This document shows, piece by piece, positions 5,441-24,463 of a stretch of 24,847 bases of DNA. This DNA comes from a virus. The stretch lies in IMG/VR virus record IMGVR_UViG_3300007276_000284, positions 1 through 24,847 of that record. The stretch is one strand, 5' to 3'. The notes below the pieces were generated by a model. It did no database searches. It saw only the letters and a program-made list of their open reading frames with translations, and was not told where the DNA came from. Position 1 is the stretch's first letter. Each line of letters starts with the position of its first letter. The position numbers and the translations under genes are program-made.

Positions 5441-5820
5441 GGTTGTTCGATCAGCTCCATCTCAAAAGACGGCACCTGTCCGTCCCCACCTTGGATTCCC
5501 TCAGGGATCTCGAGTGGTCGGTTGAATTTGCAGACGACGTCCCCATAAACCGGATGTTCCAGTGTGAATGCAGTGGCCCGTTTGTGGGTGTTGTAGAAGT
5601 CCTCGAGAAAGGCCAGATTGCGCGTCGGGTCGTACACCCGGTCGATGTCATTGGAGATGTCGAGGAAGTACTTCATACCCTGTAGGTTCAGCACGAAAAT
5701 CCGCTGATCCGGGGCTTCCGGGGGAGTGTCGAATTGATAGCTTCTCCCGAGTTGCACCCGAGTTCCACTCTCAGGGTATTTGGTGGAGTAGGTGAAATAC
5801 TTCGCTGGAAAGATCGCCAT
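5437..5820 (-). CDS. M: Minor tail protein M
   Basis: The 127-residue product sits directly after the tape measure gene and before L, the position of lambda gene M. It shows the family pattern: an N-terminal segment with GTRVQLGRSYQFDTPPEAPDQ, a helix around FLEDFYNTHKRATAF (about residues 71-85), then LEHPVYGDVVCKFNRP and a final acidic strand FEMELIEQ. Proteins of this type form a ring at the distal end of the tail tube, below the tape measure. The ATG overlaps the upstream stop as TAATG, so expression depends on the tape measure transcript. Confidence 0.8.
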   Translation of the reverse strand: MAIFPAKYFTYSTKYPESGTRVQLGRSYQFDTPPEAPDQRIFVLNLQGMKYFLDISNDIDRVYDPTRNLAFLEDFYNTHKRATAFTLEHPVYGDVVCKFNRPLEIPEGIQGGDGQVPSFEMELIEQP

Positions 5821-7091
5821 TAGATGGCTCCCATTTGAACGGACTTGATCAGTTTCTTGGTGGTGCCACCCCGGGCGATGTCATCAGCCAGCACCGCTAG
5901 GATGTCGTTCGGGCCCGGGACCGGTTGTTGCTCAGGGGGTACGATCCAGACGTTGGTGGTGCCGATTCCACCCCCTCGGTTGTTGGACGCAGCAGCGACT
6001 CCCATATGGGTGCCTGTAGATGTGACGGCCGTTCCCATCGAGTTCAGCCGGCGCACTTCATCTTGTCCAATTGCCTGAACCGCGGAACGCGTCAGCACTC
6101 CCTCACCCGGCATGAGACTGTAGAGCTGACTGTCGCGATTCAGATTACCCGGAACGATTTCTCCTTGTGCCGCTTTTCGAGCGACCCCACCCTCTTTCAG
6201 GTTGATCGTAGGTAGGCCCATTCCCGCCAGATCCATTCCGGGGAACAACCAGCCCAGTGTCTTTTGTAGGATATAGACCGACATCATCTCAGCAAAGATC
6301 TTGTGGATCGAATTCAGAATACTGATCCCCATCTCTTTGAAGGCGGCACCACCCTTTTTTGTTCCATTCGACCATGACTGAAAGAAACCGGTCAGAGCAG
6401 TTTGCGCTGAGCCAAGGGCACTTGTGATCCCACTGGATAGGGTCTTGCCCAGATTGAGGTTGCTGCTGGCCCAAGTTTGAACCAGAGAGTTCAGATTGAC
6501 CTGCTCAGTGCCAATGTCCTTCGTGACCTTCAGGATGTCTTCCCGGGTCTTACGAATGAACGTCAGCAGCGTCTTCTCTTCGGAAACCAGTTGGGTTGCC
6601 CGACGTTGCTCGACCACACCCAGTGTTCCTAGCTCGCGCTTCTTCTCCAGCTGGGCCAGTTCTGCAGCCCGGATGCCCAGAGCTTTTTCAGCTTCCTCCA
6701 GCACCATTTTCATCTGCTGCATTGCAGCTTGACCGTTGATGGACCCCGTTTCCATCCCAACTTCCGCCCGAGCAAAGCGATCCTTGAAGCCCTCCATCAG
6801 TGTGTTGAAGCCCCGCTTTTCGAACGGGTCACGTCGGCCGGCGCTACCCCCACCTTGCTTACGGGTCTCGATGTTCTCCAGTTGCTTCTTCTGCTCAACG
6901 ATACGAGCATCGATCGCGTCCAACTGTGCAATGACAGCGGGGTCGTTGTTCAGAGGATTGGAGGCGTCGTAATCCTCTACCCCCGCAATGACCTGCTTTT
7001 TCTGCCAGTCGGCAAGGCTATCTAGGCGCGAGCGGCCTTGAATTAACAGAGCATCCCGATCCGCTCCGGGCTTGCGGATCTCTTGTGACAA
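5820..7091 (-). CDS. C-terminal part of the tape measure protein, separated by an in-frame TAG
   Basis: The frame is open from directly after the TAG at 7142-7140 and is in the same phase as the 980-residue frame upstream, so it would continue that protein with GAAQREIAVLSAQVQTLSQ. The first usual start codon is a TTG at 7091, without a visible ribosome site; from there it encodes 423 residues. The middle is coiled-coil-like (MKMVLEEAEKALGIRAAELAQ), followed by a region of amphipathic helices (about residues 215-285). The end carries a tape-measure C-terminal pattern, PGEGVLTRSAVQAIGQDEVR, then NSMG. I read this as the distal third of one tape measure gene, not an independent gene. It overlaps M as TAATG. 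Confidence 0.7.
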   Translation of the reverse strand: MSQEIRKPGADRDALLIQGRSRLDSLADWQKKQVIAGVEDYDASNPLNNDPAVIAQLDAIDARIVEQKKQLENIETRKQGGGSAGRRDPFEKRGFNTLMEGFKDRFARAEVGMETGSINGQAAMQQMKMVLEEAEKALGIRAAELAQLEKKRELGTLGVVEQRRATQLVSEEKTLLTFIRKTREDILKVTKDIGTEQVNLNSLVQTWASSNLNLGKTLSSGITSALGSAQTALTGFFQSWSNGTKKGGAAFKEMGISILNSIHKIFAEMMSVYILQKTLGWLFPGMDLAGMGLPTINLKEGGVARKAAQGEIVPGNLNRDSQLYSLMPGEGVLTRSAVQAIGQDEVRRLNSMGTAVTSTGTHMGVAAASNNRGGGIGTTNVWIVPPEQQPVPGPNDILAVLADDIARGGTTKKLIKSVQMGAI

Positions 7092-7139
7092 GGTCTGTAC
7101 CTGGGCGCTGAGAACCGCAATTTCCCGTTGGGCGGCACC

Positions 7140-7142
7140 CTA
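7140..7142 (-). other. In-frame amber (TAG) codon interrupting the tape measure frame
   Basis: Read on the minus strand, the codons are CTG CGA TAG GGT GCC GCC. The frame on both sides is open and both sides have tape measure character. TAG is used as a normal stop in the terminase and primase genes of the same window. The codon is therefore either a nonsense mutation, a sequencing error or a site of partial read-through. Confidence 0.85.
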
Positions 7143-10082
7143 TCGCAGGGGGGCGCCATCGTCGAAGAGCTCGCTCCCCGTACGTTCCATTTCGCCCCGG
7201 AGTTCCGCCATTCGCTTGAGCAGCGGGGCCAGTGACTCTTCCGACTGAGTACCATTGCTGAGAAGCCCCTGCATCCCACTCTCTAACGTGTCGAGCGATT
7301 GGTCCATCCCCCCCGTCAGGGCACCGAAGCGAGTGTCCCGCAGATGTGGTTGGCCTCTAGGAATGCGTAGGGCGTCTTCCCGAGCCTGACGGTATTGTTT
7401 CTCCAACGCCGCAATCTTATCATCCGTCACTTGGTAGATTGGATCAGCTTGTTGGGAGGCAATCCTCTGGTCATTGGCATTCGAGAGACGGGACTTATCC
7501 AGTGACTGTAACTGAGAGGCAAACTCAATTTGTTTATTCAGGAAGTCATTGTACGTCGTGAGATGTGTGACTTTACCAGCATCCGCCGACGTTGCAGTTC
7601 CGTTTGCAATGTTATTATTTAGTATTGCAATCTGCTCAAGGACCTTAACTTGATACGACTTCAATTCTACTGGATCATTGTTCAACCCAGTCGTCGTTGA
7701 AGCGTAATCAGCGGCTCCCAACAAAGCACTAGCAACATCAGCGACGGGAGTGATAATTTTTGGTGGTCCCCCGGTCATTGGTACCGAAGTTGTATCCCGG
7801 TTGGTGAAATTTGTTTGAGCAGTGCTGGCATTGATCTTAACAATATTGATCAGACCCGCGATTGAAGTACCCTCAATTCCCAAGGAGATAATGAACTTCC
7901 GGGAAAGGGCCCGACGCAGATTACCCAAGTTTGTAATCAGGCCGTTCACCGTCGAGGCTGTCGATGTGACGTCGTATCCCATCCCTACAAACTGAGACCG
8001 AACGTTTTCAATTTCAGCCTGTAGCTGAACCGAACCACTGGTGAGAGTGTCGGAGCGTTCACGCAACTCAGCAATCTTACCATTCACCACGGCGATCTGA
8101 TCGCTGTACTTCTCAGCCACCCCCGTCGCTCGCTCAAGCGTGGCAGCTTGGGTGTCCATGGTGGTATTGGCGAGGGCCGTCTCTCTCGAGAAAGCGGAGA
8201 AGGCAAGGGCCGCAACTCCAACTGCCGCTCCAATAGGTCCAAGGGCGATCCAGAAGGCTCGAGTACCCACCGCTGCGATAGCGGCGCTCGCTCCCACCCA
8301 GCGTAACCCTCCCGCCAGAGCGATCAAACCCGTGACTAGAGATGCAATACGGAACGCGCCCCAGGCGGCAACGAGTGTCGCCACACTAGTCACAACTACC
8401 CGCAACATGTTAGGGTAGGCTCGTAGCCTTTCCCCCACATCCCCCAGCATTTTTGCCATATCGCGCAAGAGCAGGATCATTGGCTCAAATCCTATGGACA
8501 TAACTGACCCTAGGACCGATCCCAGTCGTTTTCCTTGGTTACGGAAAGAGCGCATTTGTGTTTCGTTGGCCTTGATGGACGCAGTGGTTCCCCGAAACGC
8601 AGTTTCCAGATCGAGCATTTGATCTTTATTGGTCGAGAGAGCGTTGAAGGCCGCAGCCGCCCGAACTTCAAATGACCGAATGGCATCCCCGGCGGTGAAA
8701 CCAGCTTTTTCCAAGTTGTTCAGAACCCCGTACAGGCCCTTCGTCCGGATATTCACGTCCTCCATCGACAGACCCAGACGGTGCAGAGTGTTCTTGAACT
8801 CCCCAGAAGGCTTCTGCAGGGCGATCAGGATCTGCCGCATACCAGTACCAAGGGTGGAACCTGAACGGATGCCCGCGTTCGCCATAGCACCCATTGCAGC
8901 TGTCAGCTCTTCAAACTGGATACCGGATTGGGCCGCAATGTTACCGGAATACTGAAGGCCAAGGGTGAGCTTTTCGATGTTCAGCTTCGAGCTGTTCACT
9001 GCCTCGGTCATCACGTTTGCCACATCCCCCATCCGGGAGCTCTCCATATTGAAGACCCCCAGAGTGGAGGTCGCAATATCAACAGCCCGATCGAGATCAG
9101 TTCCTGTGGCCGTGGCCAGGAGGGAGACGGCCGCAACCGCGTCCTCAATCTGCTCCACCGACAGACCGGCCTGACCCAGTGTGACGGCGGCATTCGACAC
9201 TTCGACGGCGGTAAACTTGGTGGCCTCGGAAACGCCGATCAAGCTCTCTCGAAGGTCCTGCATACCAGTGTCAGTGGTGCGCGTGATGGCCTGCAGGTTG
9301 CGCAAACTTTCATCAAGATCGGCGGTGAAACTAAAGGTCGACACAGCCCCCGACTGAGCAGCACTCAAAGCCGCATAGTTGGCCATGAGCCCGGACTGAA
9401 CAGCAAAAAGGCTGGCGCCACCATCTCCGAAGAGACGTTCCATCGACATCTTCCGAGCACGGGCACCGGCTTGTGCATCCGTGAGTTTCTTTGCCTCACG
9501 TGCGGCCTGGGCTCGTTCTTTGGTTTCCTGTTTAAGGAGTTCGACCCGCTTTTCGAGAACGGTCACAATCCGTCGGGCGCTGCGTTCGGCAGAGGTATTC
9601 CCGTTCGCGGCTTCCAGCCCCAAGCGAATTCGGGCAGACTCCAGCTTGTTCTGGACCTGCGCTAGATCGTTTAACCTGTTGAGGGTTCGAGCCTGTGTCC
9701 GAAGATTAAGATTCAGCGCATCCTGAACCTTGAGCTTGTCCTGCGAGAATTTTAAACCCTGTCGGGATAGCCCCAAAAGAGTTTTATTCAACTCAATCAT
9801 CTGAGCTGTGCTGGTGGCTAACCGTTGGGTTTCTGCGACCCGTCGAGCATCCCGAAACCTTGACCCCTCGACGAAGGCTCCTGTGCCCCCCTTACCAATC
9901 TGAATCTCTCGTGCCTTCAAGGCCTTCAAGACTTCCGTGGTTTGTTTGAGGTCCTGCTTTAGCTCACTGGCCCGCTGCTGAGTTTTTTCTAACTCAGCCC
10001 GAAAGGTCTTGACGTCCGCAATGGACTCCCGACTCAGCCGAAGATCAATCCGAGGGGTTTTAGTGCCAGAAGTTCCGCTCAT
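7140..10082 (-). CDS. Tail tape measure protein, N-terminal 980 residues (TP901/PhageMin type)
   Basis: The protein measures tail length during assembly and is later released toward the cell envelope. Residues 1-220 are coiled-coil-rich (TQQRASELKQDLKQTTEVLK). The TP901-type core spans about 245-480, with EATKFTAVEVSNAAVTLGQA, LLATATGTDLDRAVDIATS and AAMGAMANAGIRSGSTLGTG. A hydrophobic block with several membrane-like segments lies at about 560-635. The N-terminus overlaps the chaperone frame as ATGA. The frame ends at a TAG (7142-7140) after SELFDDGAPLR and resumes in phase for 439 more residues, so the intact protein would be about 1420 residues. Around 7550-7860 the DNA is visibly AT-richer than its surroundings and encodes a Thr/Asn-rich linker. 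Confidence 0.9.
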   Translation of the reverse strand: MSGTSGTKTPRIDLRLSRESIADVKTFRAELEKTQQRASELKQDLKQTTEVLKALKAREIQIGKGGTGAFVEGSRFRDARRVAETQRLATSTAQMIELNKTLLGLSRQGLKFSQDKLKVQDALNLNLRTQARTLNRLNDLAQVQNKLESARIRLGLEAANGNTSAERSARRIVTVLEKRVELLKQETKERAQAAREAKKLTDAQAGARARKMSMERLFGDGGASLFAVQSGLMANYAALSAAQSGAVSTFSFTADLDESLRNLQAITRTTDTGMQDLRESLIGVSEATKFTAVEVSNAAVTLGQAGLSVEQIEDAVAAVSLLATATGTDLDRAVDIATSTLGVFNMESSRMGDVANVMTEAVNSSKLNIEKLTLGLQYSGNIAAQSGIQFEELTAAMGAMANAGIRSGSTLGTGMRQILIALQKPSGEFKNTLHRLGLSMEDVNIRTKGLYGVLNNLEKAGFTAGDAIRSFEVRAAAAFNALSTNKDQMLDLETAFRGTTASIKANETQMRSFRNQGKRLGSVLGSVMSIGFEPMILLLRDMAKMLGDVGERLRAYPNMLRVVVTSVATLVAAWGAFRIASLVTGLIALAGGLRWVGASAAIAAVGTRAFWIALGPIGAAVGVAALAFSAFSRETALANTTMDTQAATLERATGVAEKYSDQIAVVNGKIAELRERSDTLTSGSVQLQAEIENVRSQFVGMGYDVTSTASTVNGLITNLGNLRRALSRKFIISLGIEGTSIAGLINIVKINASTAQTNFTNRDTTSVPMTGGPPKIITPVADVASALLGAADYASTTTGLNNDPVELKSYQVKVLEQIAILNNNIANGTATSADAGKVTHLTTYNDFLNKQIEFASQLQSLDKSRLSNANDQRIASQQADPIYQVTDDKIAALEKQYRQAREDALRIPRGQPHLRDTRFGALTGGMDQSLDTLESGMQGLLSNGTQSEESLAPLLKRMAELRGEMERTGSELFDDGAPLR

Positions 10083-10480
10083 TTTTTCCCAAACACGCTG
10101 CTAAATTGCGCAATAGCCTCGTCTCGGGTTTTGGGGATATCCGCGTTACCGGTATCGGCCGATGGTCGCTTGTTATCGCTGAACAGGTCCCCCGCCACCT
10201 TGGCTAGGGTCTGGTACGATTGCACGATTCCGGCCTGCCTCTGACCCAAGTAAAGACGTATCCGCACTCTAAGGTCATTTTGGGTATATTGCCAGTATAC
10301 TTGTCGAATATCTGAGGGGACGCAGTCGAAAACCATAACGACTGCGTCCTGAAAAGTTAGCCCACCCCACCAGGTGAGGTAGGCATCAAGGCCTGAAACT
10401 TCTTCATTCGGCTGTCGACCAGTGTTTTCGCGTTCGTCAACGAGCTCAGAAAAAAATCGGCGACATGCGCCCCCGCCCAA
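10079..10480 (-). CDS. Tail assembly chaperone T extension, made as a GT fusion by -1 frameshift
   Basis: This frame lies in the -1 phase relative to the G-type gene and overlaps its 3' half. It has no convincing start of its own (first candidate TTG at 10480, no ribosome site). The zero-frame gene contains a T TTT TTT heptamer at 10456-10450, at the codons GAT TTT TTT. A -1 slip there gives 103 residues of G followed by SELVDERENTG and 123 residues of T in all, about 226 residues. This is the arrangement of lambda G/GT, where the fusion recruits the tape measure and tail tube protein. The T part contains AYLTWWGGLTFQDAVV and ends in an ATGA overlap with the tape measure start. Frameshifting is inferred, not shown. 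Confidence 0.8.
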   Translation of the reverse strand: MGGGACRRFFSELVDERENTGRQPNEEVSGLDAYLTWWGGLTFQDAVVMVFDCVPSDIRQVYWQYTQNDLRVRIRLYLGQRQAGIVQSYQTLAKVAGDLFSDNKRPSADTGNADIPKTRDEAIAQFSSVFGKK

Positions 10481-10758
10481 TCCAAGAGCTCCATCACGTC
10501 ATCCGTGGTCATATCGAGATTGAAGACGGACAGTTCTTCCACGATTTTGCCCTTGGCATCCCGGCCAGAAAGCAGGCTGACCAGCATTGCCTCACGCAGG
10601 TCGGGATCGTAGCTGATCTGAGCCACGTCATCGATGTCACCGACCCGACGGGCCAGTTCATTCAGCAGGCCGAAGGTCATCTTGATCTCGACCGGTTTTC
10701 CCCCGATCGTAATCTCCAACATATCCTCGACTTTAGCGATCTCTGTGGTCTTAGTCAT
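10357..10758 (-). CDS. G: Tail assembly chaperone G
   Basis: The 133-residue protein lies between the major tail and tape measure genes, the place of lambda gene G (140 residues). It begins MTKTTEIAKVEDMLEITIGG and is largely helical and acidic, including LLNELARRVGDIDDVAQIS (about residues 28-46), which is typical of siphovirus tail chaperones. These proteins coat the tape measure before tube polymerisation and are absent from the finished virion. The ATG at 10758 has AAGG six bases upstream. The gene lies just after a strong terminator, so it depends on read-through from the major tail transcript or on a promoter I cannot see. Confidence 0.8.
   Translation of the reverse strand: MTKTTEIAKVEDMLEITIGGKPVEIKMTFGLLNELARRVGDIDDVAQISYDPDLREAMLVSLLSGRDAKGKIVEELSVFNLDMTTDDVMELLDWAGAHVADFFLSSLTNAKTLVDSRMKKFQALMPTSPGGVG
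10450..10456 (-). other. Slippery heptamer T TTT TTT for -1 frameshifting
   Basis: Seven consecutive T residues on the minus strand lie in the zero frame as GAT TTT TTT CTG, the X XXY YYZ layout. The -1 frame is open from here through the T extension. A weak hairpin (CGTT/AACG, loop GACG) begins about 7 bases downstream; I give it little weight. Confidence 0.75.
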
Positions 10759-10778: not shown

Positions 10779-10813
10779 AAAAACCTCCCGACCGTAATAA
10801 AACGACCGGGAGG
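10779..10813 (-). terminator. Rho-independent terminator after the major tail protein gene
   Basis: On the minus strand an 11-bp stem (CCTCCCGGTCG pairing with CGGTCGGGAGG, two G-U pairs) with an 8-base AT loop is followed by TTTTTAATTT. It lies between the major tail stop (10837) and the G start (10758). Some transcription must pass it for the downstream tail genes, so it may act as an attenuator that favours the major tail protein. Confidence 0.88.
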
Positions 10814-10836: not shown

Positions 10837-11607
10837 TTACTTCGTGGTCAGCAGCTTCGCCTGCTCGCCTTCGAACTCCGCGTAGTGCGGATCGGTGGTG
10901 ATCTGGTCGAAGAAGGACCACTCGTACGGCAGGTTGTCGAAGCCTTCAGTCGTAAAGCCCAAGGAGAAACCGTTGGTGATACGGATCTTCGGGCAGAGGA
11001 TAACCATCTCAGTGCCGTCGGCGAGCGAGCCCACAACTTTTGCACTCAGGAACGGCTGTTCGGTCTTTGCGCCGATACCGATGACGTTCGACTTGCGCAC
11101 CGTAGCCCCGATTGGCAGGGCCTTGGGCAACGCCTGAGCAAAGTCCAGCTGGCCCACGCCAACCACTGTCAGCTTACGGACATGGATCTTGTCCCCGGTT
11201 CCATCTTGGATCAGGACATAGTCCCCCGCCACGAAGCCGGTTTCATCATCAACAGTAACGGTAGTGTCAGAAACACTGGCCGTTGCCGTCAGTGTCGTCG
11301 CCACGGTTTGCGCGGCCATTCCACTGCCTTCCAAGCCGAGGGAATACGCCAAGTTTTTCGAGGTATACTCAAACGCCTCCATCGACGCTTTGACAACGTT
11401 GCCGGTCATGACCGAGTAGACCACTTGATTTCGTACGCCCTGCGTCAGCTCCGTGTAGGCCGGTTCAGCAGTGGTGCGGAAGTTCTTCACCAGGCCGATG
11501 CTGTGATCTTCAGGGTTCAGGTCAAACAGATCGGTGGTGGCGCCCAACATGACGGTCGCGGTGCCGAGCATGAAGGTACTGGTTTGTGCTTCGCCGTTTC
11601 CGGACAT
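10837..11607 (-). CDS. Major tail (tube) protein
   Basis: Gene order (between the tail terminator and the G/GT chaperones) and sequence indicate the tail tube protein. It begins MSGNGEAQTSTFMLGTATVM, then shows GLVKNFRTTAEPAYTELTQG and MTGNVVKASMEAFEYTSKNL, the usual beta-rich tube pattern. The central part (about residues 100-160, VSDTTVTVDDETGFVAGDYV) looks like an inserted Ig-like or beta-barrel segment. The ATG at 11607 has GGAG nine bases upstream and gives 256 residues. Starts at 11622 (ATG) and 11673 (GTG) are possible but lack spaced ribosome sites. A candidate promoter upstream and a terminator directly downstream make this a nearly separate transcription unit. Confidence 0.85.
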   Translation of the reverse strand: MSGNGEAQTSTFMLGTATVMLGATTDLFDLNPEDHSIGLVKNFRTTAEPAYTELTQGVRNQVVYSVMTGNVVKASMEAFEYTSKNLAYSLGLEGSGMAAQTVATTLTATASVSDTTVTVDDETGFVAGDYVLIQDGTGDKIHVRKLTVVGVGQLDFAQALPKALPIGATVRKSNVIGIGAKTEQPFLSAKVVGSLADGTEMVILCPKIRITNGFSLGFTTEGFDNLPYEWSFFDQITTDPHYAEFEGEQAKLLTTK

Positions 11608-11680
11608 ATCAAAATTCTCCATTATGTGACTGGGTGTCAACTCCGAATATACTTTCAGAACCACAGTCGACACAAAGGTT

Positions 11681-11712
11681 TTTATAGGTTAATTGGGGTG
11701 TATCAAAGTCAA
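11681..11712 (-). promoter_or_regulatory. Candidate promoter for the major tail gene
   Basis: On the minus strand TTGACT (11712-11707) is followed, after 19 bases, by CTATAA (11687-11682), or after 20 by TATAAA. The spacing is longer than ideal. The -35 element overlaps the ribosome-site region of the divergent ribbon-helix-helix gene, so the two units could influence each other. Confidence 0.4.
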
Positions 11713-11725
11713 AGGAGAAATCGAC

Positions 11726-11926
11726 ATGTCAAATTCCCAAGATGACCTTCAAGCCTTTACGGTTCGACTGCCCCGGGGGCTGGTTGCCCAAATCACGGCC
11801 CGGGGTTTGGTGGAACGTCGAAAACGGAACAGTCAGATTCAGTATATGCTGGAACGTCAGATCGAAGACGCTGTGACGTCAGACCTGAAAGTTATTCAAT
11901 CGATGTCAGATTCGACAGAAGCCTGA
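11726..11926 (+). CDS. Arc-type ribbon-helix-helix DNA-binding protein
   Basis: The 66-residue protein has a single ribbon-helix-helix domain: the strand DLQAFTVRLPRGLVAQI (about residues 7-23), helix A to about LVERRKRNS, then helix B SQIQYMLERQIEDA. This matches Arc/MetJ-type repressors that bind operators as dimers of dimers. The ATG at 11726 follows AGGAG with 8 bases between; an upstream ATG at 11693 lacks such a site. It is the only plus-strand gene within the structural block, divergent from the major tail gene and overlapping the end of the tail-terminator gene by 35 bases. Target and regulated genes are unknown; the recurring TTGACTT motifs nearby are candidates. Confidence 0.85.
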   Translation: MSNSQDDLQAFTVRLPRGLVAQITARGLVERRKRNSQIQYMLERQIEDAVTSDLKVIQSMSDSTEA

Positions 11927-12344
11927 GTGCAACCGGTTGGATTGGTTGGGTCTTCGTTGGCAACGGAGATCCAACCCGCACCCCGTTCCCTACGAACAGC
12001 GCTCCAACTTCGTCCCCGGTATCCGCGTCGTAAACTGGGATACAACTGTTCGGTAAAACCCGGTCGAGTAGATGGTGCATCAGTTTCGTCATACGATCGA
12101 GGTTTTTGTCATGTGCAGTGGAAACTGCCAGCATGCACTGGACGGAGTAGAATTCCTCGATGTCCATATGAAGTTCTGACAATCCGATGAAATCCTGATC
12201 TTTTGGCCACTGGCTTTCGTCAGTGAAATCATCCAGATTGACAGCCACCAGTGTCTCCCCCTCGAGGGCCATAGCCTCCTTGAAATCGCTGCAGAAGCGT
12301 AACAGGGATGCCCGGATGTTCCGGAAATGATTGTAACCACTCAT
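11892..12344 (-). CDS. Probable tail terminator protein (lambda U position)
   Basis: The 150-residue product is placed between the gp10-like tail completion gene and the major tail gene, where lambda U lies. It starts MSGYNHFRNIRASLLRFCSD, a helix expected for this fold, and contains a middle strand-rich part (EEFYSVQCMLAVSTAHDKNL, about residues 63-82) and a helix DRMTKLMHHLLDRVLP, a pattern common in tail terminators (an amphipathic helix after a beta strand). Tail terminators cap the growing tube and join it to the head. I do not recognise the sequence beyond this. The ATG at 12344 has GAGG 7 bases upstream, inside the end of the preceding gene. Confidence 0.6.
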   Translation of the reverse strand: MSGYNHFRNIRASLLRFCSDFKEAMALEGETLVAVNLDDFTDESQWPKDQDFIGLSELHMDIEEFYSVQCMLAVSTAHDKNLDRMTKLMHHLLDRVLPNSCIPVYDADTGDEVGALFVGNGVRVGSPLPTKTQPIQPVALRLLSNLTSIE

Positions 12345-24387: not shown

Positions 24388-24463
24388 GCCGGCATAGCTC
24401 AGATGGTAGAGCACCTGACTTGTAATCAGGGGGTCGCGGGTTCGAAGCCTGCTGCCGGCACCA
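24388..24463 (+). tRNA. tRNA-Thr (anticodon TGT), CCA encoded
   Basis: A full cloverleaf is visible: acceptor stem GCCGGCA/TGCCGGC, D arm from AGCTCAGATGGTAGAGC, anticodon stem CCTGA/TCAGG with loop CTTGTAA (anticodon TGT at 24421-24423), T arm GCGGGTTCGAAGCCTGC, discriminator A and an encoded CCA. It decodes ACA. It stands alone with its own promoter, more like a chromosomal gene than a phage tRNA cluster. It may mark the phage/host border or be carried by the phage; see the finding on this end. Confidence 0.95.

Follow-up and report, generated by a model that had tools for sequence, protein, structure and literature searches.

An antisense Arc-type ribbon-helix-helix gene at the tail-terminator/major-tail junction of a phage family, a probable local regulator of the tail-tube gene

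The antisense gene and its neighbours in the window

The window, which is the whole stretch of DNA that was analysed, is a virus record of 24,847 bases with its structural genes on the minus strand in the order terminase, portal, major head, genes without functional match, tail-terminator-like gene, major-tail gene, tail chaperone frames and tape measure. The labels 'tail terminator' and 'major tail' are gene-order names. The terminator-like gene gave no PHROG or Pfam match. The strongest match of the major-tail gene was a PHROG of 'unknown function' (1.5e-75), and the second was a weak match to a tail assembly PHROG (3.7e-6). A gene for a small ribbon-helix-helix (RHH) protein lies between the two, divergent from the major-tail gene.

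10837 to 11607, minus strand: major-tail (tail-tube) gene, named by gene order, ATG at 11607, matching phrog_28493
11712 to 11717, plus strand: Shine-Dalgarno sequence of the RHH gene, AAGGAG, 8 nt upstream of the ATG at 11726
11726 to 11926, plus strand: RHH (Arc/AmrZ-type) regulator gene of 66 codons, antisense to the structural operon
11892 to 12344, minus strand: tail-terminator-like gene, named by position

The original prediction had described an antisense gene at this junction, divergent from the major-tail gene and overlapping the terminator-like open reading frame by 35 bases at its 3' end, and all three points were borne out. In contrast, no start codon is present at 11681, where the gene had been said to begin. 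The mechanically called open reading frame runs from a TTG at 11693 to a stop ending at 11926, and the ATG at 11726 is the likely start because AAGGAG precedes it by 8 nt. The ribosome site had also been expected to overlap the promoter of the major-tail gene. This was not the case, as the Shine-Dalgarno sequence is clear of the best candidate promoter (−35 at 11675-11670 and −10 at 11651-11646, minus strand), and this promoter is instead adjoined by an 18-bp repeat (11673-11690).

Conservation and predicted fold of the junction gene

Relatives were gathered through scans with the major-tail protein (for one scan, the best 80 of 112 confirmed matches) because a single-protein scan with the RHH protein gave only a contig identical at the gene. 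Together with four added phage loci (2-1, Lumi, KB12-38 and fJoAci01) and the window, the scans gave 89 loci, of which 72 were distinct; JWF and Seuss were present as IMG/VR copies (L163 and L209, respectively). When a profile match at E <= 0.01 was taken as the criterion, an RHH gene was found at the junction in 56 of the 72 distinct loci (4 of them weak, E 0.001 to 0.01), and it was opposite to the tail-gene strand in all 56. No second RHH match was found in any of the 72 loci. Antisense frames at the junction were counted when they started with ATG and had at least 36 codons; another antisense ORF was present in 9 loci, 8 of which form one group, no antisense gene was present in 6, and 1 further locus was truncated. 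Some antisense gene was therefore present in 65 of the 71 informative loci. One of the six loci without such a gene, L182, has a 47-codon antisense frame that does not resemble an RHH gene.

Most loci are centred on the tail gene and span approximately 4 kb on either side of it, so distant RHH genes would escape except in ten whole records. In 8 of these ten, the RHH gene was found in a single place each, the same junction (one of these records is a contig that matches the window exactly at this place). The position was constant over major-tail identities down to approximately 36% to the window, and the gene was flanked by the same two structural genes in the annotated records that contain it and, judged by profile, at most loci. 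Among isolated phages, it is present in JWF, 2-1 and Lumi, and in a divergent form in Seuss. In 52 of the 56 RHH loci, its 3' end overlaps that of the convergent gene, the overlap being 4-83 nt in 51 loci and 113 nt in one.

The dN/dS ratio in the antisense frame was 0.06-0.20 in all 18 pairs of close relatives, a set that the window's own gene lies outside of, indicating that selection maintains the antisense frame as a gene in the phages compared. These findings confirm that the RHH gene is real. The reading as a chance open reading frame was rejected in view of the conserved position and the purifying selection in relatives. The gene had originally been described as an inserted, moron-like unit, and occurrence at random positions in relatives had been set beforehand as the finding that would speak against a regulatory reading. 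The opposite was found, namely one fixed junction that is not sporadically occupied (RHH gene in 56, another antisense ORF in 9 and none in 6 of 71 loci).

The window RHH protein alone scored 13.6 bits against Pfam Arc (PF03869), below the 20.4-bit cut-off. Among the 35 RHH family members, Pfam Arc matched 28 at E <= 0.1 (best 2.6e-8) and Pfam FitA-like_RHH matched 23. Against solved structures, the family profile matched AmrZ at 2.2e-7 and Arc and Mnt at 0.003. The AF2 monomer model of the window protein (pLDDT 88.7) has an extended N-terminal stretch, although without a DSSP strand call, followed by helices 17-30 and 34-65, and agrees with the beta-alpha-alpha topology of the RHH (Arc/MetJ) fold. 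Foldseek with this model placed AmrZ and then Arc on top (E 0.026 and 0.14, prob 1.00 and 0.97, respectively), with zero matches at E <= 0.001, and VIA-align returned mostly RHH chains (antitoxins, CopG, NikR, Arc etc.) at Z 5.1-7.3, a range that the tool grades as middling. The stretch A-F-T-V-R-L-P was aligned to Q-F-N-L-R-W-P of Arc, the positions of which make the DNA contacts in that protein. The predicted RHH fold is weak from the window protein alone and clear as a family.

In the L205 group, the junction protein was modelled as a double beta-alpha-alpha (pLDDT 87.2). It is encoded at 3601-3939 of L205, with counterparts at the corresponding position of L194, L204, L207, L208 and L210. 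The best structural matches of the model were chains of the F-plasmid relaxosome (TM approximately 0.6, E 0.004), with nothing under E 0.001. The match table gives the name of the complex, and we take the matched chains to be TraY, a single-chain double RHH protein. The predicted beta-alpha-alpha repeat is what the L205-group gene shares with these chains, and its place at a phage tail junction is what sets it apart. The L205-group and window RHH family profiles showed weak similarity (hhalign 33%), and no Pfam RHH match was found in the four proteins scanned from the nine loci with another antisense ORF (three of them from the L205 group). A single-chain double RHH protein is thus predicted to replace the single RHH protein at the same junction in this group.

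A separate arrangement was observed in L169 (2749-4825), where two tandem major-tail genes lie behind one antisense RHH gene, which is placed before the first copy.

The divergent region and the putative tail-tube transcription unit

The following features were identified in the region between the two divergent genes and past the end of the major-tail gene.

11673 to 11690: operator-like site, reading CAAAGGTTTTTATAGGTT on the plus strand, two AGGTT repeats with a 10-bp period (AACCT-N5-AACCT on the minus strand)
11659 to 11662: third half-site in inverted orientation (tail strand GGTT), within the −35/−10 spacer of the tail promoter
11646 to 11675, minus strand: candidate sigma70-like promoter of the major-tail gene, TTGTGT at 11675-11670, 18-nt spacer, TATATT at 11651-11646
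11626 to 11653, plus strand: possible RHH promoter, GTGACT-16-TATACT (9/12), overlapping the tail promoter; at chance level, from the window alone
10784 to 10813, minus strand: intrinsic terminator past the major-tail gene, 12-bp stem and T run

On the tail strand, positions 11690-11673 read AACCTATAAAAACCTTTG, that is, two AACCT repeats spaced 10 bp. The exact form occurs once in the window. It was found at the junction in the window's record and in 5 of 9 relatives searched (6 of 10 records), with one exact match elsewhere, and on this distribution the motif was rejected as a genome-wide phage promoter. Of the 72 distinct loci, 24 had the core ACC-N7-ACCTT in the 130 nt preceding the tail ATG, compared to a mean of 0.175 and a maximum of 2 in 200 shuffle rounds. 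In the alignment of 23 sites, which excludes L009, ACC and AACCTT were invariant and the flanks variable. A GGT followed ACCTT by 11-12 nt in 21 of the 24 sites (background 4.9% for offsets 10-12), and a TAnnnT −10 was located at a fixed distance from the site in 22 of the 24 loci, a count given without a background. The fixed spacing of site, −10 and GGT indicates that the repeats would touch the −35 and that the inverted half-site would lie between the −35 and the −10. Part of the conserved ACCTTTG block could belong to the promoter rather than to an operator.

When 20 records were scanned with a looser form of the pattern, 15 of the 16 records in the site-bearing class had it at the junction. 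There were 13 non-junction matches in the 20 records. Of these, 7 were at the major-tail stop of a single clade; the remaining 6, which include one directly past the tail gene of L147, equal the number obtained with the reversed control pattern. The form AACCTNNAANAACCTTTG matched 107 stretches of the viral collection, and therefore the pattern alone is unspecific to the phage family. In L143, L144, L149, L151, L152 and L157, AAGGTT-N6-GGT overlaps the major-tail TAA stop on the strand opposite to that of the junction site, and it is missing there in L142 and L156. This element is possibly a second operator or an mRNA element.

The site ACC-N7-ACCTT was not present in 48 of the 72 loci, 32 of them with an RHH match. 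No operator was demonstrable in these loci, and single-sequence repeat tests were mostly non-significant (p <= 0.05 for inverted repeats in 8 of 56 and for direct repeats in 5 of 56). The repeats TATGC-N5-TATGC of Seuss were noticed by eye.

The RHH beta strand was also compared with the site. Strands whose three outward residues are A/G/S, S/T and R occurred together with the site in 23 loci, neither was found in 29, and 4 loci were discordant (3 with the strand alone and 1 with the site alone), the strand class having been picked post hoc, after the data had been viewed. The association was strong as a plain table. On the tail-protein tree it was non-significant: the supported branches yielded 3 independent pairs, of which usually 1 was concordant, none discordant and 2 uninformative, and all branches together yielded 7. 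Two neighbouring cases without the site, L140 (Q) and L168 (R), were consistent with the pairing, and L166, L167 and L174 were inconsistent with it. With the tree considered, covariation of the beta strand with the site is suggestive.

The candidate tail promoter was below the threshold of the consensus scan, which found 3 promoter-like sites in the region compared to a shuffle mean of 1.5. The tail promoter is thus a candidate backed by comparison, not by consensus score. For the RHH gene, no firm promoter emerged: extended −10 matches were found at the site in 9 of the 24 loci, the window not among them, and the plus-strand match of the window at 11626-11653 is within chance. An intrinsic terminator was found after the major-tail gene in 39 of 68 loci compared to 9 of 680 random windows, and terminators are also annotated there in the JWF and Seuss records. 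With a promoter and a terminator of its own, the tail-tube gene would be separable from its neighbours. The site lies 13-18 nt from the RHH start in JWF, 2-1 and L143 and 35 nt from it in the window. Given the gap of 13-18 nt, RHH transcription in these three could start downstream of the site only with a very short leader.

Proposed role and alternative explanations

The original prediction that the RHH gene controls expression of the tail-tube gene held in outline. An operator-like site common to relatives beside the tail-tube promoter makes such control the most likely role, as judged from sequence comparison. We consider it probable that the gene product is an Arc-type protein that acts locally on a transcription unit dedicated to the tail tube, more likely as a repressor than as an activator, and that it probably regulates its own gene as well. 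This proposal draws on the gene itself, the RHH fold prediction, the position, the selection seen in relatives, the geometry of site and promoter in 24 loci and the terminator, all of them computed; from these we infer binding at the site, repression over activation, autoregulation and timing.

According to this proposal, an Arc-type RHH protein devoted to one adjacent promoter would bind the AGGTT/AACCT half-sites at 11673-11690 and 11659-11662, over or beside the −35 of a host-type promoter that would drive the tail-tube gene as a separate unit with its own terminator. The bound protein would block this promoter and lower tail-tube transcription, and it would also limit its own synthesis, since the site is located in or just upstream of the RHH leader. 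The tail-tube gene might then be silent in lysogens or in the early phase of infection, or its expression might be limited until the product is needed. Of 16 related virus records, 9 were found to encode a tyrosine integrase, among them the one from which the close relative L137 was taken, and this makes lysogeny, and a role in lysogens, plausible for many relatives. No integrase match was found in JWF and Seuss in the same search; the Lumi paper terms JWF temperate (PMC9959647).

In the usual description of tailed phages, the structural genes form a single late operon that is switched on en bloc. If, across a phage family, the tail-tube gene has a promoter, a terminator and a dedicated antisense regulator of its own, this would amount to a circuit that determines how much of one virion protein is made, or when. 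The RHH gene is probably a built-in switch for tail-tube production and not a chance insertion, and of the two ideas in the original prediction, the regulatory one is supported and the one of insertion is not.

A literature search by title or abstract start returned nothing on an RHH gene at this junction, most subscription journals being outside its coverage. The product of gp017 of Achromobacter phage JWF (YP_009224023.1), named 'Arc-like DNA binding domain protein', is a homologue at the same junction and on the same strand, with the same site class. The Arc-like name appears in the JWF record only; phage 2-1 has a 'hypothetical protein', and the gene is unannotated in Lumi and Seuss. Among solved structures, AmrZ of Pseudomonas aeruginosa was the top match by both sequence and Foldseek, and it represses its own promoter (PMC3325190). 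AmrZ differs in being a chromosomal protein of 108 aa with several target genes, whereas the phage RHH protein seemingly has one local target.

In phage P22, arc and mnt lie in the late operon as the 'ant moron' and are thought to affect the tailspike level by read-through (PMC2629481). The likeness to P22 is in the Arc-family RHH genes among virion genes and in a presumed effect on a downstream tail gene. In contrast to the Arc and Mnt repressors, which control an antirepressor gene, the RHH protein of the phage family has its putative site abutting the tail-tube promoter. Furthermore, the RHH gene is not adjacent to an antirepressor (ant) gene, its neighbours being the terminator-like and major-tail genes. 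The same paper describes the immunity I region of P22 as being in high flux, with ten types in sixteen genomes, whereas here one antisense gene occupies a fixed junction. The P22 region is also marked by the sar antisense RNA; an Rfam gathering scan of the window gave nothing but a tRNA, a result that bears on sar only if Rfam includes it.

Activation of the tail-tube promoter is the main rival to repression, because RHH proteins do both, as described for AmrZ, the closest solved relative (PMC3325190). The RHH protein would be bound at approximately −36 to −51 and would help RNA polymerase at a weak −10. The two direct repeats are located directly upstream of the −35 in 24 of 72 loci, the region just upstream of the −35 is a common activator position, and the −10 of the tail gene is often weak (e.g., TAGCAT and TACGAT). 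Nevertheless, the inverted GGT between the −35 and the −10 (21 of 24) and the overlap of ACCTT with the −35 suit blocking better, and we regard activation as unlikely.

Less probable is a moron-like accessory gene that is expressed in the lysogen and has its target elsewhere in the host or the phage, the conserved intergenic stretch then being an autoregulatory site plus the tail promoter. The presence on the opposite strand of a lone small gene that has its own ribosome site, the 6 of 71 informative loci with no antisense gene and the integrases of many relatives would agree with it. In contrast, the site abuts the tail promoter, and its matches beyond the junction in 20 records are the 7 at the tail stop of one clade and 6 others, a number equalled by the reversed control. 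The position constant to approximately 36% major-tail identity is also unlike that of the fluctuating ant moron of P22 (PMC2629481).

There is also a slim chance that the junction gene is a late immunity determinant, in which the RHH protein of a prophage would shut the tail-tube promoter of incoming phages with a matching operator. If so, matching incoming phages would assemble heads and no tails, and the changing beta strands and sites, together with the double-RHH swap, would represent diversified immunity specificity, like that of prophage repressors, acting on a virion gene.

The original prediction had also suggested that the gene might reduce read-through from the head genes. Convergence of RHH transcription on the upstream operon is possible, and the convergent 3' overlaps in 52 of 56 loci would suit transcriptional interference or an antisense RNA that curbs read-through. 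We consider such interference very improbable as the main effect of the gene, as the protein sequence itself is conserved, not just transcription, and the predicted fold is of a DNA-binding protein type. The reading as an orphan antitoxin of an RHH-type toxin-antitoxin system, for which the many RHH antitoxins among the structural neighbours and the FitA-like_RHH matches in 23 of 35 members could be cited, is barely credible and was rejected on the gene order, with structural genes on both sides in annotated records and by profile in most loci and no adjacent toxin gene, and on the lack of a PADLOC match among the three junction proteins of the window (0 of 3).

Other features of the window were observed in passing. 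The tape-measure gene (5820-10082, minus strand) is split into two long ORFs of 980 and 423 aa with one PHROG for both, the break near 7091-7140 being either a sequencing or assembly error or genuine. Past the major-tail gene, 10079-10758 (minus strand) holds two overlapping frames, the first with a tail-chaperone PHROG and the second without match, which look like a G/GT-type programmed frameshift; slippage at the tail-chaperone frames is annotated in the Seuss record. An Rfam gathering scan of the window returned a single kind of match, a tRNA, and a tRNA-Thr (TGT) gene is located at 24388-24463 on the plus strand, past the primase gene.
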